64,000 nucleotides of DNA from Limimaricola sp. G21655-S1 (lineage in GTDB: Bacteria; Pseudomonadota; Alphaproteobacteria; Rhodobacterales; Rhodobacteraceae): contig NZ_JAPWGO010000015.1 of the NCBI RefSeq assembly GCF_027213785.1, positions 1 to 64,000 of the forward strand. Reading direction: 5' to 3'. The notes under the pieces were generated by a model. That model was not told where the DNA came from, did not search any database, and saw only the letters and a program-made list of their open reading frames with translations. The position numbers and the translations under genes were made by a program. Every line of letters starts with the position of its first letter. Positions within the stretch are counted from its first letter, which is position 1. Shown one piece after another: positions 5,951 to 25,530 of the stretch.

Positions 5951-6030
5951 TCGGTATTTCCATAATGGTATCAGATACTTGACTTGAGAGCACCGATGCA
6001 GGCGGGGCAGGGCGCAGCCTCAGTTCCAAC

Positions 6031-6052
6031 CCGATTGCCAATTGGCAATCGG
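6031..6052. promoter_or_regulatory. parS-like palindrome, copy 2
   Basis: A perfect 22-bp palindrome centred on ATTGCCAATTGGCAAT, extended by CCG and CGG, 17 bp beyond the end of the replication initiator gene. Its centre lies 99 bp from that of copy 1. It is the longest perfect member of the set and a probable ParB-binding centromere. Confidence 0.65.
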
Positions 6053-6068
6053 CCCCGAAGGCGCCCGA

Positions 6069-7118
6069 TCAGATCGGGTTCGCCTCGGCATATTTGCGGA
6101 AGAAAGCGAGGAAGGCGCGGTCGGGATCCTCGGCCGGGGACTTGCCCTTCGACCATTCGCGCCACTGGCCCTCGATGTTGTAGATGTCGTAGCCGGGAAA
6201 GCGCAGCCGCGCCGTCTCGTAGGTCTCGGTGCGCAGCGCCTCGCCCTGCCGGTCGAGCCAAGCCGGGCGCGGCCGCGGCGGGGTCTGGCCCGGGATCGTG
6301 GTCGTGCCGCCCTGCCCGCGCGCCTCCTCGGCGGCCCGCGCCCGGCGGCCGGTGCTGGCGAAGCTCAGGCTGCGCTCGGCCTTGTCGGTGGCGTCGCCAT
6401 CCTTGCGCCACCAGCGCAGCTCCACATGGGTCACGCTGCGCCCGGTCTTGATCGGCGCGATCTCGACCATGTAGTCCGACAGCGCGCAGACCTCGGCCAC
6501 CGCCGGATCGATCGCCCGCAGCCGCAGGTTCGACCAGGAGGTCAGCTTGCCCTTGGGCACGCCGAGCACGGCGCGGATGCCGTCGAGCGTGAAGGTCTCG
6601 GAGGATTTCCAGCGCAGGTTGCCGCGCTTCTGCACCATCTCGTAGAGCGTCAGCGCGTATTTCGACGACAGCGCGAACATCACCTCGCGCTGCAGCCGCG
6701 CGAAGACGGTGGAGTTGGTGATCACCTTGCGCAGCCGCGCCGGGATCTCGTATTCGAACAGCCCGTCGCTGCGCGCCATCTCGACGTTGCCACCGAGGAG
6801 CTGCACCCGCTCTACCGCCGGTTTGCCGTCCCAGATCACCTCCATCTTGACGATCGCGCTCATCAGCCGCTCGATCGAGTCGCCGATCCGATCGTTGGAA
6901 TTGTGGTTGCCCCTGAGGTCGGACTTGGCGATCACATGCATCACCGGCTTGTCGATCGCCTCCCAGGCATTCTCCAGGAGCTGGTTGTAGATCCGGCGGT
7001 CGGCGAGGGTGAGCGGCGTCACCTCGATCAGGTCGACCAGCTCGCCCGGCTTGATCAACGTCTCGGGCGTGGGCCGCGCGTCGACCGTGCGGTAGGAGGG
7101 TTGGGGCAGCTTTGCCAT
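6069..7118 (-). CDS. plasmid replication initiator, Rep_3 family (RepB-type)
   Basis: A 349-residue initiator of the Rep_3 superfamily. It has the double winged-helix layout: an N-terminal domain with TLADRRIYNQLLENAW and SNDRIGDSIERLMSAIVKM, then SSKYALTLYEMVQKRG and FTLDGIRAVLGVPKGK in the second domain. The C-terminal 80 residues are basic, then Pro/Arg-rich. Such proteins bind iterons, melt the origin and recruit the host replisome. It is read away from an iteron array and from divergent parA-parB. The ATG at 7118 has only a weak ribosome site (GGCGG), common for limiting Rep synthesis. Confidence 0.88.
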   Translation of the reverse strand: MAKLPQPSYRTVDARPTPETLIKPGELVDLIEVTPLTLADRRIYNQLLENAWEAIDKPVMHVIAKSDLRGNHNSNDRIGDSIERLMSAIVKMEVIWDGKPAVERVQLLGGNVEMARSDGLFEYEIPARLRKVITNSTVFARLQREVMFALSSKYALTLYEMVQKRGNLRWKSSETFTLDGIRAVLGVPKGKLTSWSNLRLRAIDPAVAEVCALSDYMVEIAPIKTGRSVTHVELRWWRKDGDATDKAERSLSFASTGRRARAAEEARGQGGTTTIPGQTPPRPRPAWLDRQGEALRTETYETARLRFPGYDIYNIEGQWREWSKGKSPAEDPDRAFLAFFRKYAEANPI

Positions 7119-7150
7119 GTCGTGACCGCCAATGCGCGTTACCTGTTGCG

Positions 7151-7182
7151 CATACTTTTGTATGGGCGGCGATGTAAGTCAA
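7151..7182 (-). promoter_or_regulatory. candidate rep promoter and operator
   Basis: On the minus strand a TTGACT hexamer (7182-7177) lies upstream of an inverted repeat CATAC-TTTT-GTATG (7151-7164) that covers the expected -10 area. The start codon is 33 bp further on. An inverted repeat over the promoter is the usual autorepression site of Rep_3 initiators. Promoter assignment is by eye only. Confidence 0.4.
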
Positions 7183-7309
7183 TCGACAGCGGTCGCGGGG
7201 AGGGCCCACCCGATAAGTAAGGTTTAAGTCGGCGACGCGTCGCGGTGGCGATTCGCATCCCCCTGCAAAACAGGGCTTTGCGAGAGGGGTGATTCCTGCA
7301 ATCCCGGCC

Positions 7310-7419
7310 CACCCCAAAGGTAAGAGTTCGGCACCCGATAGGTATCGCCAGCCATCCCGATACGTATCGCCAACCCACCCAATATGTTGCGCCAATCGTC
7401 CCGAAAGGTAAGCGATACA
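7310..7419. repeat. five tandem 22-bp iterons, replication origin (oriV)
   Basis: Five units repeat with exactly 22-bp spacing; their CCC anchors begin at 7312, 7334, 7356, 7378 and 7400. The shared core is approximately CACCCGATAGGTATCGCCA, best kept in units 2 and 3 and partly degenerate in units 1, 4 and 5. An isolated further copy (CCCGATAAGTAA) lies at 7209-7220, nearer rep and out of phase. A helically phased array next to a Rep_3 gene is the standard iteron origin. No long A+T-rich tract is obvious beside it. Confidence 0.8.
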
Positions 7420-7531
7420 GGCGCTTCGCGCAGTGAAACAAGGGCCCCGCGCGGCATGAACAGAGAACCCTAGAATCCAGAACAGGGGGTATTCGGATTC
7501 GGATTTCGGGGTTTTGGGCGCCCCGCGGCGG

Positions 7532-7654
7532 CGATTTGCTACAAATCGGGATGGGGGAGGGGGCCGAGGTGCCGCGAAATCCGAACCGGGCGGCTCTTTG
7601 GGTCCGAGTGCGGTATTTGCGCCACGCCCCGGGCAGGTTCGGTTTTCGTGGCAC
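7532..7654. repeat. inverted repeats in the parA upstream region
   Basis: Two dyads lie between the iterons and parA. One is a tight hairpin, CGATTTG-CTA-CAAATCG, at 7532-7548. The other has 19-bp arms at 7569-7587 and 7636-7654 that match at 17 of 19 positions when one is reverse-complemented (GTGCCGCGAAATCCGAACC against GTGCCACGAAAACCGAACC). They are placed as operators for ParA autoregulation, or as an incompatibility determinant. Function is inferred from position. Confidence 0.55.
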
Positions 7655-7731
7655 CGCCCCGCGGATAGCGCACTTTACCTCCGTGCCGCGCCACCGCATC
7701 TTGGAGGCCGAACGCAGGCAAGGATATCGCT

Positions 7732-8931
7732 TTGGACATGGAAGACTATCCCGTCGGGCTGGATGAAATCGACGCGCTGGCGGGCCGGGCCGGGCGGGTG
7801 ATCGAGAAGCTGCGCGCGCGGGTCTTCGCGCCGGGCGTCAGCAAGAGCCTCGATCTGCGCTTCAACGTGCGCAGCGCCGCCGAGATGTGCGGCCGCACCG
7901 AGAAGGCGCTGCGCGACGCCGAGGGCGACGGCCGTTTGCCCGAACCCGAGAAGGATCCCGATACCGGGCGCCGCACCGGCTACTCGCTGGCCGAGGTGAA
8001 CCGGATGCGCGAGGTGTTCGGCACGCTGCCGCGCCGCGCCCCCACCGATCCGGCGACGGTGCTCGCGGTGCAGAACTTCAAGGGCGGGGTCGGCAAGTCG
8101 ACGGTGGTGACGCATCTGGCGCAGTATCTCGCGCTCAAGGGCTACCGCGTCTGCGTCATCGACTGCGACAGCCAGGCCTCCACCACCAGCGTCTTCGGCC
8201 TCAACCCCGACGTCGATGTCGACGAGGAGGAGGACACGCTCTACCCGTTCTTCCGCCATGGCGGGCCGACCAGCCTGCATTACGCGCTGCGCGCCACCTA
8301 CTGGCCCGGGATCGCGCTGATCCCGGCCAATCTCGGTCTTTACGACGCCGAGTACGAGTTCGCGGCGCGCATGGTGCGCGAACAGGATTTCGTGCTCGAC
8401 CGGCTGCGCGGCGGCATCGAGACGATCTCGGACCAGTTCGACGTGATCCTGCTCGACCCGCCGCCGGCGCTCGGGATGATCTCGCTGTCGGTGCTGCGCG
8501 CGGCCAACGCGATCATCGTGCCGGCGCCGCCCAACAACATCGATTTCGGCTCGACCGCGCATTTCCTGCGGATGATGTCCTCGACCCTGGGCGAGCTCGC
8601 GCAACATGGCGGGACGCGGGGCTATCATTTCGTCAAGATCCTTGCGACCAAGATGAACGACCAGAAGAGCGCCCATGGCGCGATCAAGCGGATGATGGAT
8701 GCGGTGTTCCCGCAGGACATGCTGTCGGCGGTCCTGAAGGACAGCGCCGAGATCGACAACGCGACGGCGAACCTGATGACCGTCTACGAACTGACCGGGG
8801 CGGCGACCCGCACCGAGACGCACAAGCGCTGCCGCGTCTATCTCGACGCGGTGGGGCGCGAGGTCGAGACCGAGATCCGCAAGACATGGCCGAGCCACCA
8901 CGCGGCGCTGCGCAAGGAGGGGATCCTGTGA
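7732..8931 (+). CDS. parA: partitioning ATPase ParA (type Ia)
   Basis: A 399-residue ParA ATPase for plasmid segregation. An N-terminal MerR-like helix-turn-helix region spans about residues 44-110, as in autoregulating type Ia ParA proteins. The deviant Walker A KGGVGKST is at 117-124, then VIDCDSQASTT and DVILLDPPPALG (Walker B region). The start may be TTG at 7732, eight bases after AAGGA, or ATG at 7738. The stop overlaps the GTG start of parB. It moves ParB-bound plasmid DNA over the nucleoid and probably represses its own promoter at the upstream inverted repeats. Confidence 0.93.
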   Translation: MDMEDYPVGLDEIDALAGRAGRVIEKLRARVFAPGVSKSLDLRFNVRSAAEMCGRTEKALRDAEGDGRLPEPEKDPDTGRRTGYSLAEVNRMREVFGTLPRRAPTDPATVLAVQNFKGGVGKSTVVTHLAQYLALKGYRVCVIDCDSQASTTSVFGLNPDVDVDEEEDTLYPFFRHGGPTSLHYALRATYWPGIALIPANLGLYDAEYEFAARMVREQDFVLDRLRGGIETISDQFDVILLDPPPALGMISLSVLRAANAIIVPAPPNNIDFGSTAHFLRMMSSTLGELAQHGGTRGYHFVKILATKMNDQKSAHGAIKRMMDAVFPQDMLSAVLKDSAEIDNATANLMTVYELTGAATRTETHKRCRVYLDAVGREVETEIRKTWPSHHAALRKEGIL

Positions 8932-9905
8932 GCAGGAAGCACGACGACATCTTCAACGACGTCCTGAACGGTCTCGATGAGACCGAAACCCGCGAGGACG
9001 GGGCAGGGCGGGCGCAGACGCGGTTTCTCAAGCGCTCCACCGCCATGTCCGAGCAGGTCACGGGCGGGCGCCAGGAAAAGGTGCTGCGCCTCGTCGATCC
9101 GGCCAGCTGCGTCATGTGGGAGGGGCACAACCGCGCCTACGAGCTGCTGACGCCCGAAAACTGCGCCGACCTGATCGAGGGGATGAAGGCGCAAGGTCAG
9201 CAGGAGTTTCCCGCGATCGTGCGGCGGCTGCGGCCGGCGGGGCAGGGCGACGGCCCCGAGTTCGAGGTGATTTGCGGCGCCCGGCGGCATTTCACGGTGA
9301 GCTGGCTCAGGGCCAACAACTACCCGCAGTTCCGCTACCTGATCGAGGAGCGCGAGCTGACCGACGAGGAGGCGTTCCGCCTCGCCGATATCGAGAACCG
9401 CGACCGCGAGGACATCTCGGATTACGAGCGCGCCCGCGACTATGCCCGCGCGGTCGAGGCCTATTACGGCGGCCAGCAGAAGCTGATGGCCGAGCGGCTG
9501 CAGGTCTCGCCCGGCTTCCTGTCGCGGTTCCTGCAGTTGGCCAAGCTCGAGCCGGAGATCGTCGCCGCCTTCCCGTCGATCCGCGACATCAAGGAGCTGC
9601 ATGCGCGACAGCTGCGGCCGCTGATGGCAGAGCCCGGCGCGCGCGAGGCAGTGCTGGCGGAGGCGAGGGCCATCGCCGAGGAGGGCGCGCGTCTCGCGGC
9701 GCCGGCGGTGCTGACGCGGCTCAAGGCTGCGGGCAAGGTGACGGCGCCGCGCAAGCGCTCGGACCGGGTGGTGCAGCATCGCGACGGCAATGTCAGCATC
9801 CGCCGCAAGGGCAAGTCCTATGTGATGGAGTTCGACGCCGATCTCAGCGACGCGGCGCTGCGGTCCGCGCTCGACCTGTTCCTGAAGGAGCGGAAGACGC
9901 GCTGA
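8928..9905 (+). CDS. parB: partitioning protein ParB
   Basis: A 325-residue centromere-binding protein. The N-terminal CTPase/ParB domain contains EFEVICGARRHFTVSW (the GxRR box) and ADIENRDREDISDYERA. A helix-turn-helix follows in KLMAERLQVSPGFLSRFLQL, and the C-terminal dimerisation segment ends in LDLFLKERKTR. The GTG start overlaps the parA stop (GTGA), indicating translational coupling. The stop codon lies inside one of the TTGCCA-TGGCAA palindromes, the probable binding sites of this protein. Confidence 0.93.
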   Translation: MSRKHDDIFNDVLNGLDETETREDGAGRAQTRFLKRSTAMSEQVTGGRQEKVLRLVDPASCVMWEGHNRAYELLTPENCADLIEGMKAQGQQEFPAIVRRLRPAGQGDGPEFEVICGARRHFTVSWLRANNYPQFRYLIEERELTDEEAFRLADIENRDREDISDYERARDYARAVEAYYGGQQKLMAERLQVSPGFLSRFLQLAKLEPEIVAAFPSIRDIKELHARQLRPLMAEPGAREAVLAEARAIAEEGARLAAPAVLTRLKAAGKVTAPRKRSDRVVQHRDGNVSIRRKGKSYVMEFDADLSDAALRSALDLFLKERKTR

Positions 9906-9924
9906 TTGCCAGTTGGCAATCAGC
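9901..9924. promoter_or_regulatory. parS-like palindrome, copy 3, at the parB stop
   Basis: A 24-bp near-palindrome with core TTGCCAGTTGGCAA, mismatched only at its central bases. It overlaps the TGA of parB and is followed by an A+T-rich stretch (9926-9945). With copies 1 and 2 it brackets the rep-par module, as expected for centromere sites. Confidence 0.6.
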
Positions 9925-10068
9925 AGAAAATACTAATTTAATCAGTGCTTTGATTGCAGTTGTTCGACAAGAGCGGCAAGCCGCTCGGAGCGCCGCTAGA
10001 AAGACCCCGGCGAGGAACAGCGTCTCGATGCCGCTCAGTCTTCTCGATGTGGGATTGCTCTCTTGGAG

Positions 10069-10302
10069 ATGGACATATCGCCATTGCCCTTCGCGAACCT
10101 CTCGCGGCAGGTCTATGTGACCAGAGGCGACGAACACGAAAATTGGCCGATCCGGCTGGCGCGGGAATGCCGGGCACTGCCGCAGGAGATGCTGCTGCAA
10201 GATTTCGCGAAGATCGCGCCGATGCTCGCCGGCGCGATCGAGGTGCAGGGCGACGGGGGATCCCTCGGCGAACCGGCGGACCCGGTCGATTTCGACCACT
10301 AG
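10069..10302 (+). CDS. hypothetical 77-residue protein
   Basis: An unrecognised short reading frame starting MDISPLPFANLSRQVYVTRG and ending PADPVDFDH. Codon third positions are about four-fifths G or C, clearly above first positions, which favours this strand over the antisense frame with the same codon borders. The ATG at 10069 is preceded by TTGGAG; a TTG at 10063 is an alternative. No signal peptide or membrane segment is seen; it is acidic at its end. It lies between parB and a convergent hydrolase gene. The flanks (9925-10068 and 10303-10501) hold nothing I can identify. Confidence 0.45.
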   Translation: MDISPLPFANLSRQVYVTRGDEHENWPIRLARECRALPQEMLLQDFAKIAPMLAGAIEVQGDGGSLGEPADPVDFDH

Positions 10303-11266: not shown

Positions 11267-11584
11267 TCACAGGCAGGAAGCGAAGGCCACCACCGGCAGC
11301 ATCGTCCAGGCCGCCGCCAGCAGCGCCCCCGCCGCCAGAGCGAGGCCGATGTTGCGGAGCCGGGGATCGGGTTCGCGCCAGCGCGGTGATCTGAGGATCA
11401 GCAGGCAGAGGGCCTGCAGCGCGATCGCGGCCAGCGCCGCGCCGATCAGCAGCGCGCGCTCAGATAGGGCGATGGGCGGCGCGGCCCAGCGGCTCGAGCA
11501 CAGCAGGCCGTGCAGGCCGTAGACGGCGCTGAATGAGGCGAGCCAGAGACCCAGCGGCAACGACAGGCGCAGCACCGAGATCAT
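11267..11584 (-). CDS. small membrane protein of the oxidase cluster
   Basis: A 105-residue protein with three hydrophobic segments (about residues 5-29, 42-64 and 78-105). The ATG at 11584 overlaps the stop of the fused oxidase subunit I/III gene (ATGA), so it is translationally coupled; an in-frame ATG at 11593 is an alternative. Length, topology and gene order recall subunit IV (CyoD) of quinol oxidases, but I see no convincing sequence match. Probably an accessory or subunit IV-like component of this oxidase. Confidence 0.6.
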   Translation of the reverse strand: MISVLRLSLPLGLWLASFSAVYGLHGLLCSSRWAAPPIALSERALLIGAALAAIALQALCLLILRSPRWREPDPRLRNIGLALAAGALLAAAWTMLPVVAFASCL

Positions 11585-14037
11585 GTCAGCCATCCCGGCA
11601 GCGCCGCCGCCAGAACCGCGATCCCCGAGACGAGCACGGCGTAATCGCTCCACAGCCGCGCGATGCGGGGCTCTCCGCCAATGATGGCGCCGACATGACC
11701 GGCCCGGCGGCGCGCCGCGACGAAGAGCGCCATCACCAGCGCCACCGCCAGATGCAGCAGCGCGTAGCCGATAAGCACCCAGAGCGTGGCGTCATAGGCA
11801 TGCGCGGTCGGGTCGGGCACGCGGGTCAGGATCCGGATCCCCGCCCATGCGAGGCCGCCAAGCCCCGGCAGCAGAAGCAGCAGCCCGGCGCCGGGGCGCA
11901 GCCTCGGTCCCAAAGCGGCGAGCCCGGCGCCCGCCAGCGCCGCAAGCGCCACGTCGAGCCCGGGCTCCGCGTAGCGCGGCGGTGGCCAGTTCGGGGCGAT
12001 GGTCCACAGAAAGACATAGCCGAAGAGCAGCGAGCCGAAGAAGGTGCCGTTCGCGAGCAGCAGGAAGATCGACCCCCACCAGCCCGGCGGATCGGCGACC
12101 TCGCCGGCGGTCAAGAGCTCGGGGCCGTGCCCCACCGGCAACGCGCCCTCGCGCGTGGTGCCGCCGAGGCTCCAGGTCCAGTACAGGGCGCAGCAGATCA
12201 CGCCGACGGCCGAAATCGGCACCAGCCAGTAGGTCTTGAGCAGCATCCCGAGGAAGAACAGGCCGGTCACCGCAGACATCAGCATCGGCAGGACGGTGTT
12301 GCCCGGAAATATGGTGATGTAGCGCGGCGCGCCGGTGGCGATCTCGATCGAGAGGGTTTCGCGTCGGCCCCGTGACGGATCGCCGAGATAGCCCTCGCCC
12401 CGGGCGAGCCGGACCGGCAGGTCGGGGGCATCGTAGAGCGGCTCGCGCGAGGTCACTTGGGGCAGGCTCGCGAAGTTGTACGGTGCCGAGGGCGTGGGCA
12501 TGGCCCATTCCAGCGTGCCCGCCTTCCACGGGTCGCGCGAGCCGCGGATCGCCACCGCCGCGTTGATCACGACGTCGATCAGCACCAGCGCGAAGCCGAT
12601 CGACATGACGAAGCCGCTGATCGAGGCGATCAGGTTGATCGCCTCCCAGCCCTGACCGCTCTCATAGGTGTCGATCCGCCGCCGCATGCCCAAGAGACCG
12701 GCCCAGTGCAGCAGCAGGAAGGTGCCGTGAAACCCCGGCACGATCAGCCAGAAGGCGGTGTTGCCGAGCTTGAAGTAGGTCTTGCGCCCGGTGAAATGCG
12801 GCATCCAGTAATAGAGCGCGGCTAGCATCGGAAACACGAAGCCGCCGACCAGCACGTAATGCAGATGCGCCACGATGAAGTAGGTGTCATGCGCCTGCCA
12901 GTCGAAGGGCACGATCGCCACCATCACCCCGGTGAGACCGCCGATCACGAAGGTGGCGAAGAAGGCCAGCAGCCAAAGCATCGGCAGATGCAGGCTCGGG
13001 CGGCCCTTCGACAGCGTGCCGATCCAGGCGAAAATCTGCACCGCCGTCGGCACCGCCACCAGCGTCGAGGCGGCCGAGAAGAAGGCCAGCCCCATATGCG
13101 GGATGCCGGTGGTGAACATGTGGTGGACCCAGAGCCCGAAGCTCAGCACGCCCAAGCTCACCGCCGCCGCCACGACCCAGCCGTAACCCATCAGCCGCGA
13201 GCGCGCCATCACCGGCAGGATGGTCGAGATCGCCCCCGCCGCGGGCAGGAAGATGATATAGACCTCCGGGTGACCGAACAGCCAGAACAGGTGCTGCCAC
13301 AAGAGCGCGTCGCCGCCCGCCGCGACCTGGAAGAACGGCATGTCGAAGGCGCGTTCCAGCTCCAGAAGGATCGAGCCGAGGATCAGCGGCGGAAAGCCGG
13401 TGAGGATCATCACCGCCGTGACCAGCGCGTACCAGGCGAAGATCGGCATCCGCGACAGCGACATGCCCGGTGCGCGGTATCGCAGCACCGTCACGGTGAT
13501 CTCGACCGCCGCCGAAATGGCCGAGATCTCGACGAAGGTGATGCCGATCAGCCAGAAATCCGAGTTGATCCCCGGCGCGCCGATGGTCGAGGAGAGCGGC
13601 GGATACATGAACCAGCCGCTGTCGGGCGCCACGCCGGCCAGCAGCGCGAAGATCATCATCGAGCCGCCGAAGACGTAACACCAGAAGCCGTAGGCGGTGA
13701 GCCGCGGAAAGGCGAGGTCGCGGGTGCCCAGCATCTTCGGCAGCAGGTAGACCGCGAGCCCCTCGAAGAAGGGGATCGCGAACAGGAACATCATGATGGT
13801 CCCGTGCATGGTGAAGATCTGGTTGTAGTGGTCCGGCCCGAGGAAGGCCGAGCGCGGGCTCGCGAGTTGCGCCCGGATCAGCATCGCGAGAATGCCGCCG
13901 ACGATGAAGAAGAAGATCGCGACCGCGAGGAACATGCGGCCCAGATCGGTGTGGTTGACCGTGGTAAACCAGCCCCTGAGGCCGGGCTCGGAGGCCCAGA
14001 TGCGCGACAGCGCGCGGTGACGCCTGAGCGCGTTCAT
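11581..14037 (-). CDS. fused haem-copper oxidase subunit I/III
   Basis: An 818-residue fusion. Residues 1 to about 560 are subunit I: low-spin haem ligands H78 (TMHG) and H393, high-spin haem ligand H391 (AHLHY), CuB ligands H256, H305 and H306, and the cross-link tyrosine Y260 in GHPEVY. The C-terminal 200 residues, from WWGSIFLLLANGTFFGSLLF, are a subunit III-like membrane domain. D107 at the D-channel mouth is present, but the following Asn pair is missing (FPRLTAYGF). Q334 replaces the K-channel lysine in PTAVQIFAW. H70 and Q73 (DHYNQIF) fit quinol oxidases, while the expected Arg and Asp in helix I are absent. Catalyses O2 reduction; overlaps both neighbours by 4 bp. Confidence 0.88.
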   Translation of the reverse strand: MNALRRHRALSRIWASEPGLRGWFTTVNHTDLGRMFLAVAIFFFIVGGILAMLIRAQLASPRSAFLGPDHYNQIFTMHGTIMMFLFAIPFFEGLAVYLLPKMLGTRDLAFPRLTAYGFWCYVFGGSMMIFALLAGVAPDSGWFMYPPLSSTIGAPGINSDFWLIGITFVEISAISAAVEITVTVLRYRAPGMSLSRMPIFAWYALVTAVMILTGFPPLILGSILLELERAFDMPFFQVAAGGDALLWQHLFWLFGHPEVYIIFLPAAGAISTILPVMARSRLMGYGWVVAAAVSLGVLSFGLWVHHMFTTGIPHMGLAFFSAASTLVAVPTAVQIFAWIGTLSKGRPSLHLPMLWLLAFFATFVIGGLTGVMVAIVPFDWQAHDTYFIVAHLHYVLVGGFVFPMLAALYYWMPHFTGRKTYFKLGNTAFWLIVPGFHGTFLLLHWAGLLGMRRRIDTYESGQGWEAINLIASISGFVMSIGFALVLIDVVINAAVAIRGSRDPWKAGTLEWAMPTPSAPYNFASLPQVTSREPLYDAPDLPVRLARGEGYLGDPSRGRRETLSIEIATGAPRYITIFPGNTVLPMLMSAVTGLFFLGMLLKTYWLVPISAVGVICCALYWTWSLGGTTREGALPVGHGPELLTAGEVADPPGWWGSIFLLLANGTFFGSLLFGYVFLWTIAPNWPPPRYAEPGLDVALAALAGAGLAALGPRLRPGAGLLLLLPGLGGLAWAGIRILTRVPDPTAHAYDATLWVLIGYALLHLAVALVMALFVAARRRAGHVGAIIGGEPRIARLWSDYAVLVSGIAVLAAALPGWLT

Positions 14038-14768
14038 GGTCTCTCTCCCCGCAGGAAGGCTTGCCAGCCCTCCGCGTCATGCGCGATCACCGTGAAGCGG
14101 TGGTCGCGGTATCCCGGTCCGTTGTATTCGGCGTTCAGCCCCTCGTAGCGGCCGGGCCGGTCGGCCTCGATCCTGAGCACGTTCACATGGCCTGGCACGG
14201 CGTCGAGCTTGCCCGCCAGCCGCGGCACCCAGAAGGAATGGACCACGTCGGCGGAACTGATCGCCACGTCGACCGGGCGCCCGGCGGGGATGTGTAGCTC
14301 GTTCTCGGTCACCCGTCCCGGCGCGTCGGCATAGCCGAAGCGCCAGTCCCATTGCCGGGCTTCGGCGCGCACTTCGACCAGGTCGGGCGTGGCGCGCGGC
14401 AGCAGCCGTTCGCCGATCACGAGGCCGTAGGCCAGCAGCGCGGCGAGCACGGCCAGCGGAAAGGCGAGGCCGAGCCAGACGACGAAGCGTCGCTCTTGCA
14501 CCTCGCCTGGCGGTCGCCGCCAGGCCCAGGCGATCAGCCCGGCGACGAGAAGGAAGATCGCCGTCGCGCCGATCAGGAGCACCCACCACAGCGTGGCGAT
14601 GATCGCGGCGGCGGGTCCGGCCGGATGCACCGTCGAGAGGCTCTCTTCGCAACCGGCGAGCAGCAGGAGTGTTGAGCCGGCGACACCACTGCGCAGGAGA
14701 GAGCGACCATGGCCGAGGAAATGGTTCAGACCGAAAGGGAAGAGCTCGAAGACCCGATCGTGGAACAT
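14034..14768 (-). CDS. oxidase subunit II lacking CuA (quinol-oxidase type lipoprotein)
   Basis: A subunit II of up to 244 residues. A lipobox LLLAGC gives a lipidated Cys at residue 40; two membrane helices (about 52-80 and 95-118) lead to a cupredoxin domain. Where CuA proteins have CxExCxxxHxxM, this one reads GLNAEYNGPGYRDHRF: both Cys are Asn and the His is Tyr, closely resembling CyoA. It therefore cannot hold CuA and probably serves a quinol. The start is uncertain: the only in-frame ATG is at 14768, which overlaps the divergent gene at 14709, while an out-of-frame ATG at 14710 would give a normal 22-residue signal. The 3' end overlaps the next gene (ATGA). Confidence 0.75.
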   Translation of the reverse strand: MFHDRVFELFPFGLNHFLGHGRSLLRSGVAGSTLLLLAGCEESLSTVHPAGPAAAIIATLWWVLLIGATAIFLLVAGLIAWAWRRPPGEVQERRFVVWLGLAFPLAVLAALLAYGLVIGERLLPRATPDLVEVRAEARQWDWRFGYADAPGRVTENELHIPAGRPVDVAISSADVVHSFWVPRLAGKLDAVPGHVNVLRIEADRPGRYEGLNAEYNGPGYRDHRFTVIAHDAEGWQAFLRGERP

Positions 14769-15224
14769 GCCGGCTACGAAGACACCGAATCCATTGTCGG
14801 CATCTGGGGCCATCCGCTGCACGCGATGAGCGTGGCCTTTCCGGTGGCGCTGACCTTCTGCACCTTCGGTGCGGACGCGCTCTACTGGTGGTCGGGAGAG
14901 CTGTTCTGGGCCCGCGCCGCGATCTGGGCGGCGAGTACGGCCTTCCTGTTCGGCCTCGCGGCGGGCGCCACGGGCACCGCCGAGCTGCTGCTGGTCCCGG
15001 GCATCCGTATAAGGGCCCCGGCATGGACCCATTTCGTGATCGCGGTGCTGCTGCTGTCGCTTCTGGGGCTGAACTGGGGCTACAGGTTGCAGGGCTACGA
15101 GGCGGCGGTGCTGCCCTATGGCATCCTGATGTCGGGCTTCAACGTGCTCGTGGTGATGGTCACGGGGTGGCATGGCGGCAAACTCGTCTTTGATTATCGT
15201 CTGGGCACGTCGAAAGGCAGCTGA
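14709..15224 (+). CDS. DUF2231-like four-helix membrane protein
   Basis: A 171-residue membrane protein with conserved histidines: WGHPLHAMSV near residue 35, WTHF near 107 and TGWHGGKLVFDYRLGT near the C terminus, a pattern typical of DUF2231. Four hydrophobic segments are visible. Such histidines may bind haem or metal (inferred). The ATG has a GGAGAGAG ribosome site. It is the only plus-strand gene inside the oxidase cluster: its 5' end faces the subunit II gene and its last 31 bp overlap the 3' end of the HemJ/CopD-like gene. Confidence 0.7.
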   Translation: MAEEMVQTEREELEDPIVEHAGYEDTESIVGIWGHPLHAMSVAFPVALTFCTFGADALYWWSGELFWARAAIWAASTAFLFGLAAGATGTAELLLVPGIRIRAPAWTHFVIAVLLLSLLGLNWGYRLQGYEAAVLPYGILMSGFNVLVVMVTGWHGGKLVFDYRLGTSKGS

Positions 15225-15703
15225 TTGCCGCGCGGCTCGGCGAGCCAGCCGGGCACCGGGATCTCGCCCAGCTCCGGCTTGGCGAGGACCAGCGCCAGGA
15301 TCGTCAGGATCGGCACCAGCAGCAGGACGAGCGGCAGCGCCGGGTTCGGCGCCCGGTGCGCGCCTTCGCGTTCGGCCACGGCGACGAGGACGTAGCCGAC
15401 CCAGACGTGAAAGCTCACCAGCAGCGCCACGAAGACCAGCTTCGCGAACATCCATGTCACGAAGACCTCGCGCAGGAAGATCAGCCCGGTCCCCGAGGCG
15501 ATGGCGAGCACCGCCGAGGGCGTGACGAAATAGGTATAGGCGTAATGGGTGGCGCGGCGGATGCGGCGGTAGTCGCTCTGGCCGATCGCCGGGTCGTGCC
15601 GCGACAGCATCAAGGGCAGCGCGAAGAGCCCGCCGCACCACAGCAGCAGCATGCCGACATGCAGCGCCTTCAGATACGGGATCAGCCCGGCGAGCCAGCT
15701 CAT
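15194..15703 (-). CDS. HemJ/CopD-like membrane protein
   Basis: A 169-residue protein with four hydrophobic helices. The opening YLKALHVGMLLLWCGGLFAL and the later WMFAKLVFVALLVSFHVWVGY resemble the HemJ (protoporphyrinogen oxidase) and CopD families, with the conserved His and Lys positions. At an oxidase locus it may aid haem or copper supply; which of the two cannot be read from sequence. The ATG at 15703 overlaps the stop of the CtaG gene (ATGA). Its 3' end overlaps the convergent DUF2231-like gene. Confidence 0.65.
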   Translation of the reverse strand: MSWLAGLIPYLKALHVGMLLLWCGGLFALPLMLSRHDPAIGQSDYRRIRRATHYAYTYFVTPSAVLAIASGTGLIFLREVFVTWMFAKLVFVALLVSFHVWVGYVLVAVAEREGAHRAPNPALPLVLLLVPILTILALVLAKPELGEIPVPGWLAEPRGNQLPFDVPRR

Positions 15704-16410
15704 GCCGCCGCACGCTCCGCCATGCGCCAGCCGCGGCGCGCGGTGAGGGCGATCATCGCGAGATAGGGCAACATCGCCGGCACCCACATGATCAGCCCGC
15801 CGAGCTGCTGGTCGGCCAGCGGCGAGAGGCCCCAGCCGAGCGGCGCCAGCGCATGCGCCGCGTAGAGCTGCGCCGGGGCGAAGGTGAGGATCGCGCCGAG
15901 CAGCCCCATCTGCATGAGCCCGGCCAGCGACCACAGCATCGCCTCGATGGCCGACCGTTCGGCCAACACCGCGCGCCAGAACCAGACGGCGGAGCCCAGC
16001 AGGCTCAGCTGCATGATCCAGTAGACGGCGATGTCGCGCAGCGCGAGATCATAGGCGGCGGGCAGGTGCCAGGCCCAGAGCAGGGCGGTCGAGATCAGGA
16101 AGGGCAGGGCGGCGCCCGAGGGGCGGCGGCTTGGCCATGCGGCGGCGAGCAGCGGCGCCGCCACGGCGACCAGCAGCACGTGGTGCACGACACGTGCCGA
16201 GAACAGCGCCACCGCCATGGCGCAGAGCGGCGAAACGAAGGCGAGGGCCAGCACCGTCGTCGCGGCGAGGCCGGCGCGGCTGTGCCGCAGGGCGATCGCC
16301 GTGGCGAGCAGGGCGCCCAGCAGCAGGGGATCGAAATTCCACGATTGCAGCGCGTTTTCCGGCACGGGCGCCGCGCCGCAATAGCTCCCCGGCAATATCC
16401 ACTCCGACAT
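15700..16410 (-). CDS. ctaG: cytochrome c oxidase assembly protein, CtaG (caa3-type) family
   Basis: A 236-residue protein with about six or seven membrane helices. Features of the caa3-type CtaG family include VSPLCAMAVALFSARVVHHVLL, LLWAWHLPAAYDLAL and a C-terminal DQQLGGLIMWVPAMLPYL. Members help build the CuB centre of haem-copper oxidases. This is the topologically distinct caa3-type CtaG, not the Cox11-type protein. It is the first gene of the minus-strand oxidase operon; the ATG at 16410 is preferred over a longer start at 16461. Confidence 0.8.
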   Translation of the reverse strand: MSEWILPGSYCGAAPVPENALQSWNFDPLLLGALLATAIALRHSRAGLAATTVLALAFVSPLCAMAVALFSARVVHHVLLVAVAAPLLAAAWPSRRPSGAALPFLISTALLWAWHLPAAYDLALRDIAVYWIMQLSLLGSAVWFWRAVLAERSAIEAMLWSLAGLMQMGLLGAILTFAPAQLYAAHALAPLGWGLSPLADQQLGGLIMWVPAMLPYLAMIALTARRGWRMAERAAA

Positions 16411-20799: not shown

Positions 20800-21183
20800 C
20801 TATTCATGCCCGCCCTCCCGCGCGACGGCGAGCTCCGGATCGCCGGAGAGATAGGTCGCCCGCGATTGCAGCGTGTAGTCGGACTCGGCCAGCATGATCC
20901 CCATGAAGACCAGCGCGGCGAGCGGCGGCAGCAGGATCGCATAGACGAGCGCCAGCCGTTCCCATGCCATATGCATGAACACCGCGACGATCAGCCCGGC
21001 CTTCAGCACCATGAAGATCAGGATCAAGCTCCAGCGCAGCGCGCCTTGGAGCTGCGCGTAATCGACCATGTAGGAGGCGGCGCTGAGCACGAACAGAAAG
21101 CCCCAGCAGGTGAGGTAGAGCCGGATCGGATGGGCCTGCCCCTCGTGCGAGGCATGGGTGTCGGAGGCGGCGGCATGCGTCAT
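20800..21183 (-). CDS. cytochrome c oxidase subunit IV family protein
   Basis: A 127-residue protein with three membrane helices and a His-rich N terminus. The middle helix carries [17 protein letters not shown], typical of bacterial subunit IV (CtaF/CyoD-like), which stabilises the catalytic core. Last gene of the coxB-coxA-III-III-IV operon, 7 bp after the upstream subunit III stop. Confidence 0.82.
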
Positions 21184-21190
21184 GTTTCCC

Positions 21191-21904
21191 TCACCACAGG
21201 TAGAAGAACGCGAAGATGAAGACCCAGACGAGGTCGACGAAGTGCCAGTAGAGGCCCATGATCTCCACCGCCTCGTAGTCGCCCTTCTCGCGGCAGAGCC
21301 ATGTCCTGCGGCCGCTGTCGAATTCGCCCTTGCGGACCTTGTTCGCGACGATCAGCAGGAACAGCACCCCGAAGCTGACATGGGTCCCGTGAAAGCCGGT
21401 GATCATGAAGAAGGTCGCGCCGAACTGCTCGGCGCCCCACGGGTTGCCCCATGGCCGCACGCCCTCGGAAATGAGCTTCGTCCACTCGAAGGCCTGCATG
21501 CCGACGAAGAGCGCGCCGAGCGCGGCGGTAGCGAACATCAGTTGCGCGGTGCGGCGGCGGTTGCGCGCATAGGCGAAGTTCACCGCCATCGCCATCGTCC
21601 CCGAGGACGAGATCAGCACGAATGTCATGATCGCGATCAGCAGCAGCGGCAGCTCGGTCTGGCCGACATGCAGCGCGAAGACCTCGCTGGCATTGGGCCA
21701 TTCGACCTCGGTCGAGCTGCGCGCCGACATGTAGGAGATGAGGAAGATCGCGAAGACGAAGGTGTCGCTCAGCAGGAAGATCCACATCATCGCCTTGCCC
21801 CAGGAGGCGGTCTTGAACGCCCTCTGGTCCGAGGCCCAATCCGCGGCGACCCCTTCAAGCCCGTTCGGGCGGGGCGGTGACCTGTGAGCGGTGGCGTCGG
21901 TCAT
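21191..21904 (-). CDS. coxC: cytochrome c oxidase subunit III
   Basis: A 237-residue subunit III with five or more helices. It contains [52 protein letters not shown] and the C-terminal [20 protein letters not shown], all standard family motifs. It flanks subunit I and supports proton uptake and enzyme stability. The ATG at 21904 gives [11 protein letters not shown]; a longer upstream reading belongs to another frame of the neighbouring gene. Confidence 0.88.
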
Positions 21905-21915
21905 GCTCGTCTCCC

Positions 21916-22608
21916 TCAGCTCAGGATCGCCCGGCACAGCGCGGCGGCGTCGCTGGCCCAGCCGGTGAGGATCGCCAGCATGGCGATCCAGACGATCAGC
22001 AGGAAATGCCAGTAGATCGTGCAGAGCGCGACGGCGGGCGCGGCGGCACCGGGCCCCCGGCGCAGCCGCGTGGCCACCCGCGCCAGCGCCACCAGCCCGC
22101 CGAGGATATGCAGCCCGTGCAGCCCGGAGATCAGGTAGAAGAAGCTGGCCCCCGGCGTCGCCGCGAGGCCCTGACCGGTTTCCGCCATTCGCGCCCATGC
22201 AAGCCCCTGTGCCAGGAGGAAGGCCGCCATGCTCGCCGCGCCCGCGCCGATCCAGCTCGCGAGGCCCGGCCCGTCTCCGCGCCGGGCGGCGAACACGGCG
22301 GCCTGCAGCGCGAGGCTGCTCAGCGCCAAGAGCGCCGTGCCGGCCCAGACCACGCGCGGCAGCCGCATCTCGAACCAGTCGGCATAGCCCATGCGCATGG
22401 TGACCGCGCTGCCCGCCAGCGCGAACAGCCCGCCCGCGACGATCAGGAACACGCCGAGCCCGGTCCGGCCCGTGGGCTGGCCGCCGGGGGAGGGGCTACG
22501 GGTGACGGCGCCGGTCTCGAGCCACGGCCTCTCGGCCACGCCCTGCCGCCAGAGCCATGTCAGCGCGATCACGGCCACCAGCGCCACGAAGCCAAGCACG
22601 ATGCTCAT
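21916..22608 (-). CDS. second subunit III-like protein of the oxidase operon
   Basis: A 230-residue membrane protein of the same superfamily as subunit III but divergent. An extra N-terminal helix (residues 1-18) is followed by five or six helices, with FFYLISGLHGLHILGGLVAL and LCTIYWHFLLIVWIAMLAIL matching the C-terminal half of subunit III. Encoded directly before the canonical subunit III gene and overlapping the end of subunit I by 4 bp. Such paired subunit III genes occur in some proteobacterial oxidase operons; the role of the second copy is unclear. Confidence 0.75.
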   Translation of the reverse strand: MSIVLGFVALVAVIALTWLWRQGVAERPWLETGAVTRSPSPGGQPTGRTGLGVFLIVAGGLFALAGSAVTMRMGYADWFEMRLPRVVWAGTALLALSSLALQAAVFAARRGDGPGLASWIGAGAASMAAFLLAQGLAWARMAETGQGLAATPGASFFYLISGLHGLHILGGLVALARVATRLRRGPGAAAPAVALCTIYWHFLLIVWIAMLAILTGWASDAAALCRAILS

Positions 22609-24377
22609 GGCACGTGGCTCCAGCTGGCGCGGTGGCCGGGATCGTCCTGCGCGATGTAGTCGCGCGGCGCGCCGGGCACCGAGTAGTCATAGGCCCAGCG
22701 ATAGACCACAGGCAACTCGTCGCCCCAGTTGCCGTGACGCGGCGGCACCTCGGGCGTCTGCCATTCGAGCGAGGCGGCGCGCCACGGGTTGTGGCCCGCC
22801 TTGCGGCCCCGCGCGAGGCTCCACGCGACGTTGAACAGGAACAGCATCTGCGCAGCGCCCACGGTCAGCGCCGCGACGGTGATGAAGGCGTTGAGCGTTG
22901 CGACGCTATCCGGCACGAAGCTCGCCGAGATGTCGGGATAGCGGCGCGGCACGCCGACGAGACCCACGTAATGCATCGGGAAGAAGATCGCGTAGGCGCC
23001 GATGAAGGTGACCCAGAAATGGATCAGCCCGAGCCGGTGCGACAGCATCCGCCCCGAGATCAGCGGGAACCAGTGATAGATCGCGCCATAGATCACCATG
23101 ATCGGCGCGACGCCCATCACCATGTGGAAATGCGCCACCACGAACATCGTGTCCGACAGCGGCACGTCGACCACCACGTTGCCGAGGAAGAGGCCGGTGA
23201 GCCCGCCATTGAGGAAGGTGACGATGAAGCCGAGCGCGAAGAGCATCGGCAGGGTCAGGTGGATGTCGCCGCGCCACAGCGTCAGGATCCAGTTGTAGAC
23301 CTTGAGCGCGGTGGGCACCGCGATGATCAGCGTCGTGGTGGCGAAGAAGAAGCCGAAATAGGGATGCATGCCCGAGACGTACATGTGGTGCGCCCAGACG
23401 ATGAAGGACAGCGCGCCGATGATGACGATGGCCCAGACCATCATCCGGTAGCCGAAGATGTTCTTGCGCGCATGCACCGCGATCAGGTCCGACACGATGC
23501 CGAAGGCCGGCAGCGCGACGATGTAGACCTCCGGGTGGCCGAAGAACCAGAACAGGTGCTGGAACACGATCGGCGAGCCGCCGCCATAGCTCAGCTGCTC
23601 GCCCATCTCCACCAGAGCCGGCATGAAGAACGACGTGCCCAAAAGCCGGTCGAACAGCATCATCACGCTCGCCACGAACAGCGCCGGGAAGGCCAGAAGC
23701 GCCATCACCGTGGCGGTGAAGATGCCCCAGATGGTGAGAGGCATCCGCATCAATGTCATGCCCCGCGTGCGCGCCTGCAGCACCGTGACGGCGTAGTTCA
23801 GCCCGCCCATGGTGAAGCCGATGATGAACAGGATCAGCGAGACGAGCATCAGCACGATGCCCCATTGCGTGCCGCCCGGCGTGCCCGACAGGATCGCCTG
23901 CGGCGGGTAGAGCGTCCAGCCCGCGCCCGTGGGTCCGCCCGGCGCGAAGAAGCTCGCCGCGAGCACCACCACGGCGAGGAAATACACCCAGAAGCTCAGC
24001 ATGTTGACGAAGGGAAACACCATGTCCCGCGCGCCGACCATCAGCGGGATCAGGTAGTTGCCGAAGCCGCCCAAGAAGATCGCGGTGAGCAGGTAGACCA
24101 CCATGATCATGCCGTGCATGGTGATGAACTGGTAATAGGCCTCGGCCGAGATGAAATCGAACACGCCCGGAAAGCCGAGCTGCATCCGGATCAGCCATGA
24201 CAGGACGAGGGCGACGAGGCCGATGGCGATGGCGGTGCCGGAATATTGCAGCGCGATGTACTTGGCGTCCTGCGAGAAGACCCAGCGCGACCAGAAGCCG
24301 TGGGCATGCGGCGGCGGCAGATCGGGCACTTCGGCGGGCGGAATGCCCGTGTCGGGGTCTTCGCTGACGCTGCTCAT
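22605..24377 (-). CDS. coxA: cytochrome c oxidase subunit I (aa3-type)
   Basis: A 590-residue catalytic subunit. It keeps all haem and copper ligands: TMHG, GHPEVYIVALP, VWAHHMYVSG and VAHFHMVMG. Proton-channel residues are conventional: RDMVFPFVNMLSFW for the D-channel mouth and PTALKVYNW with the K-channel lysine. It therefore contrasts with the fused enzyme at 11.6-14 kb. The ATG at 24377 (MSSVSEDPDTG) overlaps the coxB stop by 4 bp; an upstream reading of 53 residues is rejected. It reduces O2 to water and pumps protons in the inner membrane. Confidence 0.92.
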   Translation of the reverse strand: MSSVSEDPDTGIPPAEVPDLPPPHAHGFWSRWVFSQDAKYIALQYSGTAIAIGLVALVLSWLIRMQLGFPGVFDFISAEAYYQFITMHGMIMVVYLLTAIFLGGFGNYLIPLMVGARDMVFPFVNMLSFWVYFLAVVVLAASFFAPGGPTGAGWTLYPPQAILSGTPGGTQWGIVLMLVSLILFIIGFTMGGLNYAVTVLQARTRGMTLMRMPLTIWGIFTATVMALLAFPALFVASVMMLFDRLLGTSFFMPALVEMGEQLSYGGGSPIVFQHLFWFFGHPEVYIVALPAFGIVSDLIAVHARKNIFGYRMMVWAIVIIGALSFIVWAHHMYVSGMHPYFGFFFATTTLIIAVPTALKVYNWILTLWRGDIHLTLPMLFALGFIVTFLNGGLTGLFLGNVVVDVPLSDTMFVVAHFHMVMGVAPIMVIYGAIYHWFPLISGRMLSHRLGLIHFWVTFIGAYAIFFPMHYVGLVGVPRRYPDISASFVPDSVATLNAFITVAALTVGAAQMLFLFNVAWSLARGRKAGHNPWRAASLEWQTPEVPPRHGNWGDELPVVYRWAYDYSVPGAPRDYIAQDDPGHRASWSHVP

Positions 24378-25219
24378 GGATCGCTCCCTCCGATCGGCTC
24401 CGCGGTATTCGCGACCTGCACTTCCTTGCCAGCTGGCAATCCCGCGAAGGTGAGCTGCTCGCCGAGCCAGGCCTCGTACTCGGCCTCCTCGTCGATCAGC
24501 ACGTAGCCGCGCATGTAGCCGTGCCCGGTGCCGCACAGCTCGGCGCAGAGCACCTCGAACTCGCCGGTGCGGGTGGGGGTGAACCAGAAATAGGTGACCA
24601 TGCCGGGCACCATGTCCATCTTGGCGCGGAATTCGGGCACGTAGAAATCATGCAGCACATCGACCGAGCGCAGCAGCACCTTCACCGGCTTGCCGATCGG
24701 CAGGTGCAAATCGCCGCCGTCGATCACCACGTCGTCGGCGCCGAACCGGTCATGCGGGTTGAGTCCGAGCGGGTTGTCGGCCGAGATCCAGGTCACGTCC
24801 GAGCTGCCGAGCTGTCCATCCGCGCCGGGCAGCCGGTAGCTCCAGAACCATTGCTGGGCCACTACCTCGATCTCGGTGGCGTCATCGGGCACGGTGATGA
24901 ACCGGTTCCAGACCACCAGCCCCGGCGCCAGCATCGCCGCGACGCCGAGCGCGGTCAGCGCCGTGAGCCAGATCTCCAGCCGCTTGCTCTCGGGCTCGTA
25001 ATGGGCGACGCGGCCGGGCTTGTGGCGGTAGCGGAACACGCACCACGCCATGAACAGCACCACCGCCGTGAAGACGGCGCCGGTGATCCAGAAGGTGATG
25101 ACCAGCGTGGTGTCGATATAGCCCCAGTTCGAGGCGATGGGCGTCCACCACCATGGGCTGACCAGATGGAACGCCACGGAAAACAGAACAATCAGAACCA
25201 GACAAGCCGCAACGATCAT
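24374..25219 (-). CDS. coxB: cytochrome c oxidase subunit II (CuA)
   Basis: A 281-residue subunit II. The N-terminal hydrophobic segment and a second helix lead to the cupredoxin domain, where the CuA ligands are intact: VDVLHDFYVPEF supplies the first His and CAELCGTGHGYM the two Cys, Glu, His and Met. It takes electrons from cytochrome c. No C-terminal cytochrome c domain is fused. The ATG at 25219 has a GGAAGGGA site seven bases upstream; an in-frame ATG at 25294 would add a basic 25-residue leader. The coding region contains a parS-like palindrome at 24426-24439. Confidence 0.9.
   Translation of the reverse strand: MIVAACLVLIVLFSVAFHLVSPWWWTPIASNWGYIDTTLVITFWITGAVFTAVVLFMAWCVFRYRHKPGRVAHYEPESKRLEIWLTALTALGVAAMLAPGLVVWNRFITVPDDATEIEVVAQQWFWSYRLPGADGQLGSSDVTWISADNPLGLNPHDRFGADDVVIDGGDLHLPIGKPVKVLLRSVDVLHDFYVPEFRAKMDMVPGMVTYFWFTPTRTGEFEVLCAELCGTGHGYMRGYVLIDEEAEYEAWLGEQLTFAGLPAGKEVQVANTAEPIGGSDP
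24426..24439. promoter_or_regulatory. parS-like palindrome, copy 4, inside coxB
   Basis: Perfect 14-bp palindrome TTGCCAGCTGGCAA, sharing both TTGCCA and TGGCAA arms with the three sites around rep-parAB, here about 14.5 kb away and within the coxB reading frame (residues LPAGK). It could be a distal ParB site or chance. Confidence 0.35.
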
Positions 25220-25530
25220 GGCGATGTCCCTTCCACGCGGGGGCGCAGGTCTCGGGTGCAGGCGCGTGGCAATCTTGCGAAGTGCAGCGACCATAGCCGA
25301 ATTTCGGGAAATTTTCCAGCGGCATGCGATGGCACCCCGAAAGGGCGCCCTGCGCCCGGGCCAGAGGCTGCCTTGGCGTCATGAGGACGCGGCCCGGAGG
25401 GTCCGAAACGCGATGCACAAGTTCGCCCGACCCTTCGCGGGCCGGGGGGCGGACCCGGGCGCCGATTCTGGTGCTCGTCCAGAGAACGGGTGGGTGACGT
25501 GGCGGGGCCCGGTTCCCGGCCCCGCGCCGG
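25220..25530. other. intergenic region upstream of the coxB operon, with a terminator at 25502-25525
   Basis: No gene is recognised in these 311 bp. Close to the ureohydrolase stop a hairpin with arms GCGGGGC (25502-25508) and GCCCCGC (25519-25525) probably ends the putrescine operon. The remainder must hold the oxidase promoter, which I could not place. Confidence 0.5.

Follow-up and report, generated by a model that had tools for sequence, protein, structure and literature searches.

What donates electrons to a haem-copper oxidase whose subunit II has lost the CuA site, and by which route do protons enter it when the K-channel lysine of subunit I is missing as well? These questions are raised by a gene cassette lying between positions 11,267 and 16,410 of a 64,000-nucleotide stretch of Limimaricola sp. 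G21655-S1 (contig NZ_JAPWGO010000015.1, positions 1 to 64,000), hereafter called the window. An earlier note, made from the letters alone, had described the cassette as an A-family oxidase deprived of CuA, with a quinol-type or unknown donor and altered proton delivery, and our analysis supports this description. The cassette appears to encode a real, selectively maintained O2-reducing enzyme, in which CuA was lost most likely because electrons come directly from quinol. We give a probability of about 0.6 to the reading that it would be an independently evolved quinol oxidase, with quinol as the presumed donor and with protons entering only via a rebuilt D-type path.

Relatives were collected by scanning genome contigs with six CuA-less subunit II queries, and the sample is biased towards CuA-less members. 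Among the 49 loci found, 44 are CuA-less, four bear CuA (L100, L101, L103, L105) and one has a broken frame (L104). Clade-specific changes were determined by comparing 48 CuA-less rows with 16 CuA-bearing rows having the same cassette and with 11 caa3-like rows; unless stated otherwise, counts below refer to these three groups.

Subunit II and the redox centres of subunit I

At the place where CuA proteins carry the motif CxExCxxxHxxM, the window subunit II reads GRYEGLNAEYNGPGYRDHRFT: both cysteines are replaced by Asn, the histidine by Tyr and the methionine by His. The residues reported in the earlier note are indeed there, and two of the six CuA ligand positions are retained, the first histidine (H155) and the glutamate (E192). 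The same pattern was found across the clade. Neither cysteine is present in any of the 48 CuA-less rows (N, S, G or T at one position, N or S at the other), the second CuA histidine, His198, is Tyr in all of them, and Met201 is His in 44, whereas H155 and E192 are kept in 48/48. E192, together with H383 and D384 of subunit I (both 48/48), matches the Mg site of aa3 oxidases, and its retention is explained by that site. Conservation of H155 and E192 next to a new H201 could also mean that the CuA site was turned into another, perhaps mononuclear, metal site made of these three residues. We consider this improbable, because the Mg site already accounts for E192 and because some members have F, L, Q or D at position 201 (L080, L113, L088, L079, L092); for this last reason it was rejected as the main explanation.

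In NCBIfam, three CuA-less subunit II proteins scored 132.2 (window), 135 and 141.5 bits, under the CoxB cut-off of 147.7 that CuA-bearing relatives exceed (158.5 and 170.7 bits), and no equivalog of this database fits them. The NCBI annotation names the protein ‘cytochrome B’ in the four annotated CuA-less records inspected. An in-frame ATG at 14768, the presumed start, gives a precursor of 244 aa. Its structural model (predicted local distance difference test, pLDDT, 77, poor at residues 1-39) predicts a cupredoxin fold, with Thermus caa3 and subunit II of bo3/Qox as best fold matches.

In subunit I, the haem and CuB ligands H78, H256, H305, H306, H391 and H393 and the CuB-linked tyrosine Y260 are invariant in a 23-row alignment, as the earlier note had found for the window. 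This is the ligand set of A-family haem-copper O2 reductases, and O2 reduction is predicted for the window enzyme. The protein passes the TIGR02891 (CtaD_CoxA) cut-off (688.1 versus 670.75 bits). Neither Pfam nor NCBIfam recognised its C-terminal third as COX3, COX1 being the sole match. The claim that it is a subunit I/III fusion stands because its model (pLDDT 77, predicted template modelling score, pTM, 0.85) aligns with the I+III chain of Thermus caa3, 2yev_A, over 821 columns with a template modelling (TM) score of 0.85 (target length), and on the strength of the model we regard the fusion as real. The Thermus enzyme, the best fold match for both subunits, differs in having CuA and haem c.

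Sequencing error and pseudogene formation were both ruled out as causes of the CuA loss. The nearest named relative for the locus, Limimaricola soesokkakensis, encodes in a separate record a subunit II that is 99% identical, 44 loci are CuA-less, and the ratio of non-synonymous to synonymous substitution rates (dN/dS) ranges from 0.12 to 0.27 for both subunits in 15 gene pairs. Both subunits are under purifying selection. This same ratio, together with the invariant haem and CuB ligands and the preservation of the cassette in 44 named loci, makes it quite unlikely that we are dealing with a decayed or non-respiratory remnant, such as a pseudo-oxidase, a sensor or a scavenger. Such a remnant would fit with the many channel residues that are unlike those of model enzymes, and with the reported lack of an aerobic growth phenotype upon qox deletion in Rhodobacter sphaeroides (available part of PMC3152904), a system to which we return below.

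Order of the losses and proton channels

A subunit I tree of 88 rows groups all 48 CuA-less rows in a single clade, with a Shimodaira-Hasegawa-like approximate likelihood ratio test (SH-aLRT) support of 100 and one state change. The clade arises from within CuA-bearing oxidases that have the same cassette, and the sampled bo3-type CyoB row falls outside it, on a long branch. A second tree of 87 rows, 53 of them CuA-less, from which six long-branch or outgroup rows were removed, again gave one clade (SH-aLRT 100), and so did a subunit II tree built without the CuA columns (support 86). These are trees of the ‘quick’ type, with SH-aLRT values only, and carry a long-branch warning for L032, L005, L105, L027 and L026. 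The row set excluded nine repeat loci, identical sequences, subunit I pieces shorter than 440 aa and L104, for its broken frame. The 88-row tree dropped 16 of 104 rows: copies or truncated copies (L115, L117, L118, L119, L112, L107, L108), other oxidases (L054, L053, L052, L035), and the CuA-less L094, L109, L110, L113 and L114, which were restored in the 87-row tree. The trees indicate that CuA was lost once, inside a cassette lineage whose ancestor was a cytochrome c oxidase with CuA and a I/III fusion. The earlier note had held that its reading would be contradicted if both subunits were placed among ordinary cytochrome c oxidases and a CuA site reappeared on resequencing, or if a well-characterised close homologue had the same residues. 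The first condition applies in part: ordinary CuA-bearing oxidases are the ancestors of both subunits, but the absence of CuA is genuine. As to the second, the probable R. sphaeroides orthologue has a name but, in the literature searched, no biochemical characterisation.

Donor centres disappear in a graded manner along this history. Where subunit II is readable, the caa3-like rows have both CuA and a fused haem c (11/11). Among 17 CuA-bearing cassette rows, 14 have CuA without haem c and three retain haem c, with several losses, and the CuA-less loci examined have neither. This distribution indicates that the donor side was stripped stepwise, haem c first and then CuA. By the tree, the order of events would be loss of the K-channel lysine, gain of three glutamates, loss of N139, several losses of haem c and finally the single loss of CuA, the first step being placed on long, uncertain deep branches. 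The CuA loss falls on the same branch as a Pro to Arg change at position 452 of subunit I and the His to Tyr change at position 198 of subunit II. Other sites specific to the CuA-less clade are T213, I211, P146, Q237 and F422.

Two substitutions were confirmed in the window sequence: Q334 for the K-channel lysine (K362 in R. sphaeroides), in the motif PTAVQIFAW, and T114-A115 for the Asn pair of the D channel. What did not hold was the suggestion that CuA loss and K-channel loss make up one unusual combination. Gln occupies the K362 position in 16/16 CuA-bearing and 11/11 caa3-like rows, so a single coupled event was rejected, and the comparison places the loss of the lysine and of the Asn before that of CuA, as changes common to the CuA-bearing relatives. 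In the CuA-less rows the position is Gln in 38 and Met in 10, the change from Gln to Met having occurred once on the tree. Met characterises one subclade (10/48 tree rows; loci L083, L085, L086, L087, L090, L091, L094, L095, L096, L097, L098 and L159) and is the same letter as in the R. sphaeroides K362M mutant, which is nearly inactive. No Glu was found at the aligned E101(II) position in any row, the alignment being gappy there.

The D channel is altered as well. Position 114 is T in 30, G in 12 and S in 6 of the CuA-less rows (T8 S7 G1 in CuA-bearing, S7 G3 A1 in caa3-like rows), and none of the 75 rows in the three groups keeps Asn at the N121 or N139 position (96 and 114 in the window protein). 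In the CuA-less rows, the N121, N139 and N207 positions hold V/I/M, T/G/S and E, respectively; the canonical K- and D-channel residue set (K362; N121, N139, N207) is thus absent from them. The D132 and E286 equivalents, D107 and E258, are kept in 48/48. Among relatives, the E286 position is D in Ancylobacter (L100, L101), and at the D132 position L026 has E and L027 has N. In three more distant I/III-type loci (L028, L029, L030), which keep N139, the K-channel lysine is replaced by Ala, Ser or Gly and the E286 residue by Trp.

Three membrane glutamates in the D-channel region were gained before the loss of CuA. Glu is present at positions 92, 170 and 179 in 79/79 rows of the clade having Gln or Met at the K position and in 0/9 other tree rows, with one change each. 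By alignment, position 179 corresponds to R. sphaeroides N207, and positions 92 and 170 to G117 and G198. In the five closest of 40 matched solved chains, these positions (92, 170, 179) are W/F, G and N, never Glu. L027 keeps the three glutamates though it has lost D132. In R. sphaeroides, the D-channel mutations N139T and N207D, the latter placing an acidic residue at 207, decouple pumping, and the titles of the structure matches include a D-path decoupling mutant (3ehb) as well as K362M (3om3). The analogy is weak across 34% identity; weak or absent coupling is possible.

We propose that the Glu triad would serve as proton path, that pumping may be weak or absent, and that the rebuilt D-type path alone would supply protons for the chemistry and for any pumping. 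B- and C-family oxidases are known to use only a K-type path. Tentatively, the whole clade could be their mirror image, with a D-type path only: the K lysine lost, the Asn gate replaced, and a ladder made of E92, E170 and E179 carrying all protons. One lineage would then have shed haem c and CuA and become an independently evolved quinol oxidase, having a quinol site of its own and a donor side modified by the Tyr and the Arg. Repeated K-channel loss has been described in archaeal family A (available part of PMC8239418); a literature search aimed at uncharacteristic K-pathway residues, limited to open-licence papers, gave no paper.

The electron donor

We favour quinol as donor because, to our knowledge, the only natural CuA losses in solved A-family enzymes, those of bo3 and aa3-600, are found in quinol oxidases. 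The reading also rests on the graded loss of donor centres, on the lack of a SCO gene among the cassette genes (the seven SCO matches of the genome are all on other contigs), and on the fact that R. sphaeroides QoxBA has been called a quinol oxidase (PMC3152904, crediting Mouncey et al. 2000, in the part available). Membrane quinol would deliver electrons straight to haem a, at a site non-homologous to that of bo3, and subunit II would persist as a structural cap.

Several points weigh against a quinol donor. The bo3 quinol-site residues are not conserved beyond Q73, itself common to CuA-bearing rows, and no change specific to the CuA-less clade makes an obvious quinol pocket in transmembrane helices (TM) 1 and 2. 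The CuA ligand H155 is retained throughout the clade. The tryptophans at 118 and 120, which serve cytochrome c entry in aa3 oxidases, are kept in 46/48 and 48/48 CuA-less rows; bo3-type proteins keep both too. No donor assay was found in the literature searched, and the qox deletion mentioned above had no effect on aerobic growth.

The earlier note had pointed to H70 and Q73 as what remains of a bo3-like quinol site. Both are present in the window, and both are uninformative: H70, at the bo3 H98 position, occurs in 13/48 CuA-less rows, and Q73, at the Q101 position, in all 48 and in every CuA-bearing row. Every row of the three groups has a hydrophobic residue at the R71 and D75 positions (V46 and L50 in the window; V/I/A/L and L, 48/48, in the clade). 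Membership in the bo3 or aa3-600 families, which the CyoA-like motif and the presence of bo3 subunit II chains among the best matches might have suggested, is hence highly improbable. The sampled CyoB lies outside the clade, though on a long branch, the R71/D75 equivalents are absent, subunit III is fused to subunit I, and among the cassette genes none was recognised as subunit IV. Family scores led us to reject both memberships, as they remained far under the cut-offs for Cyo (CyoA 72.3 versus 266.2 bits, CyoB 454.6 versus 1020.35) and for Qox of the aa3-600 type (QoxA 76.4 versus 240.95, QoxB 479.1 versus 1015.5). The window enzyme shares with E. coli cytochrome bo3 (CyoABCD) the A-family type, a CuA-less cupredoxin subunit II and a lipoprotein N-terminus. 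The bo3 oxidase, in which CuA loss was independent, has III and IV as separate subunits and possesses the K-channel lysine, the Asn residues and the R71/D75 quinol residues, all absent from the window enzyme. The Bacillus menaquinol oxidase aa3-600 (QoxABCD) is likewise a CuA-less A-family quinol oxidase; at the quinol positions, 6koc has Arg and Asp and the window enzyme V46 and L50.

Alternatively, electrons could reach haem a from a protein partner, a c-type cytochrome or the b-haem-type CopD/HemJ-like protein encoded in the cassette, with Y198 and R452 placed in the old path from CuA to haem a. Both residues are strictly conserved in the 48 CuA-less rows, while position 452 is P15 V1 in the 16 CuA-bearing and P10 A1 in the 11 caa3-like rows. 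R452 adjoins two arginines which, in aa3 structures, contact the haem a propionates on the CuA-haem a path, and the His that Y198 replaces leads to these arginines in CuA enzymes. The CopD/HemJ-like gene is found in 44/44 CuA-less named loci, but also adjoins the CuA-bearing relatives at 16/16 loci, and is hence not tied to CuA loss. On one Sulfitobacter sp. W027 plasmid (L155, 2350-6087), genes for a cytochrome c, a GMC oxidoreductase and a gluconate 2-dehydrogenase subunit 3 adjoin the CuA-less cassette and may provide a dehydrogenase partner. The annotated CuA-less neighbourhoods inspected showed no conserved gene for a cytochrome c, and on balance we regard a protein donor as unlikely.

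The cassette, its neighbourhood and its relatives

The genes of the oxidase lie on the minus strand in the order, from 16410 to 11267, Caa3_CtaG, CopD/HemJ-like (UPF0093), subunit II, subunit I/III fusion and a small hydrophobic open reading frame (ORF). Family searches recognised both the CtaG and the HemJ/CopD-like proteins that had been noticed as co-encoded (Table 1).

Table 1. Features of the oxidase cassette in the window. Presence in loci was scored by similarity to the window proteins, and diverged copies may be missed.
Feature	Position	Strand	Remarks
Caa3_CtaG-type copper (CuB) assembly protein	15700..16410	-	PF09678 93 bits; at this place in 42/44 CuA-less named loci
CopD/HemJ-like membrane protein, conserved His H17, H55, H101	15194..15703	-	UPF0093 48.2 bits; 44/44 CuA-less named loci
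DUF2231 membrane protein	14709..15224	+	PF09990 115.1 bits; inside cassette, between CopD-like gene and subunit II
Subunit II without CuA, lipoprotein-type N-terminus (lipobox LLAGC)	14034..14768	-	PF00116 (COX2 family) 48.7 bits
Relic of CuA loop, GLNAEYNGPGYRDH, in subunit II	14100..14141	-	
Oxidase subunit I/III fusion, 818 aa	11581..14037	-	COX1 480.7 bits (Pfam)
E92 codon, new membrane Glu in TM2	13762..13764	-	E in 79/88 tree rows, else S4 G4 T1
T114-A115, replacing D-channel Asn pair (N139-N140)	13693..13698	-	
E170 codon, new membrane Glu in TM4	13528..13530	-	E in 79/88 tree rows, else G8 I1
E179 codon, at D-channel N207 position	13501..13503	-	E in 79/88 tree rows, N in other 9
Q334 codon, K-channel lysine position	13036..13038	-	
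R452 (Pro to Arg, just before haem-a arginines R453-R454)	12682..12684	-	tracks CuA loss
Small hydrophobic ORF, 108 aa, cassette end, possible extra subunit	11267..11593	-	position kept in 41/44 CuA-less named loci

The CopD/HemJ-like protein scores under the HemJ equivalog cut-off of NCBIfam (38.1 versus 138.05 bits), and a canonical HemJ is encoded elsewhere in the source genome. The DUF2231 gene is antisense in 44/44 CuA-less named loci and in 15/16 CuA-bearing ones (exception L142). It looks like a conserved opposite-strand member of the operon, and in the window both its ends overlap neighbouring genes. The small ORF had no match in Pfam or NCBIfam, and only weak matches to it were found in CuA-bearing loci (5/16).

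The window sits on a contig of 115,858 bp. Genes resembling RepA replication and ParA/ParB partition proteins were recognised by eye at 5971-10120, and the contig may be a plasmid or a chromid. Of the five COX1-type genes in the source genome, two are within the window. The second belongs to a cluster at 20800-25294 comprising a COX4-like gene, two COX3-like genes, COX1 and a COX2 with the CuA motif; its COX1 retains the K-channel Lys and the Asn. Its arrangement is similar to that of the ‘type a-III’ operon, in which COX3 is doubled (available parts of PMC4013037 and PMC6431628).

CuA-less Rhodobacterales hosts include Limimaricola, Oceanicola, Marinovum, Paracoccus, Cereibacter, Rubellimicrobium, Jannaschia and Tabrizicola, among others, and the cassette is also found in a few Rhizobiales (Rhizobium, Mesorhizobium, Microvirga) and in Aquisalinus. 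In the genus of the window, six of eight genomes have the CuA-less oxidase, in seven copies; in the family sample, 10 of 248 do. With 44 named loci in a single scan, the enzyme is uncommon, as had been suggested, in a relative sense only. Of six plasmid records inspected, five have a CuA-less cassette and one, from Roseomonas, a CuA-bearing cassette. A search of a phage collection gave 10 matches; the five examined look like bacterial oxidase genes in short phage-named records.

The CuA-less cassette is probably the QoxBA system of R. sphaeroides, as judged from its occurrence in the genus of Cereibacter johrii, where three of five genomes carry it (G635, locus L074; G639, on a plasmid, L156; G640, L109). 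The G640 locus has the CuA-less subunit II, 68% identical to that of the window, the I/III fusion, the CopD-like gene, the antisense DUF2231 gene and the small ORF. It differs in that CtaG was not found within the surrounding 18 kb. RSP_3212 is, we assume, qoxB. RSP_3212 appears among the electron-transport genes of the RpoHII regulon (available part of PMC3441632). Neither a biochemical characterisation of QoxBA nor an analysis of its CuA, K-channel or Glu-triad residues was found in the literature searched. The CuA-less enzyme probably has a name already, and two of its three exotic-looking features are ancestral.

As to the wider family, operons with a I/III fusion and Caa3_CtaG have been described (Degli Esposti 2014, PMC4013037; a 2019 paper, PMC6431628; parts available), and the former mentions that these might be equivalent to the dual-function oxidases of some Rhodobacterales. 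The window cassette has the arrangement of their COX operon type a, a COX1-3 fusion beside subunit II and Caa3_CtaG. Members of this type (A1 subtype a) share the I/III fusion, the K-channel Gln, the lost Asn and the Glu triad, and the nearest ones also the cassette with CtaG, CopD-like and DUF2231 genes. They differ in having CuA and a Pro before the haem-a arginines, and the distant ones in having a fused haem c. No description of the single CuA loss, of the joint Pro to Arg and His to Tyr changes or of the Glu triad was found in the main texts of the open-licence papers searched.

CuA was lost so recently that close relatives still bearing it, in the same cassette, survive, and they allow the steps by which a cytochrome c oxidase moved towards a probable quinol oxidase to be followed one by one. 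In the wider clade, nature also provides oxidases that lack the K-channel lysine and carry an acidic residue at the N207 position. With them, the number of proton channels that a haem-copper oxidase needs becomes testable in natural variants.

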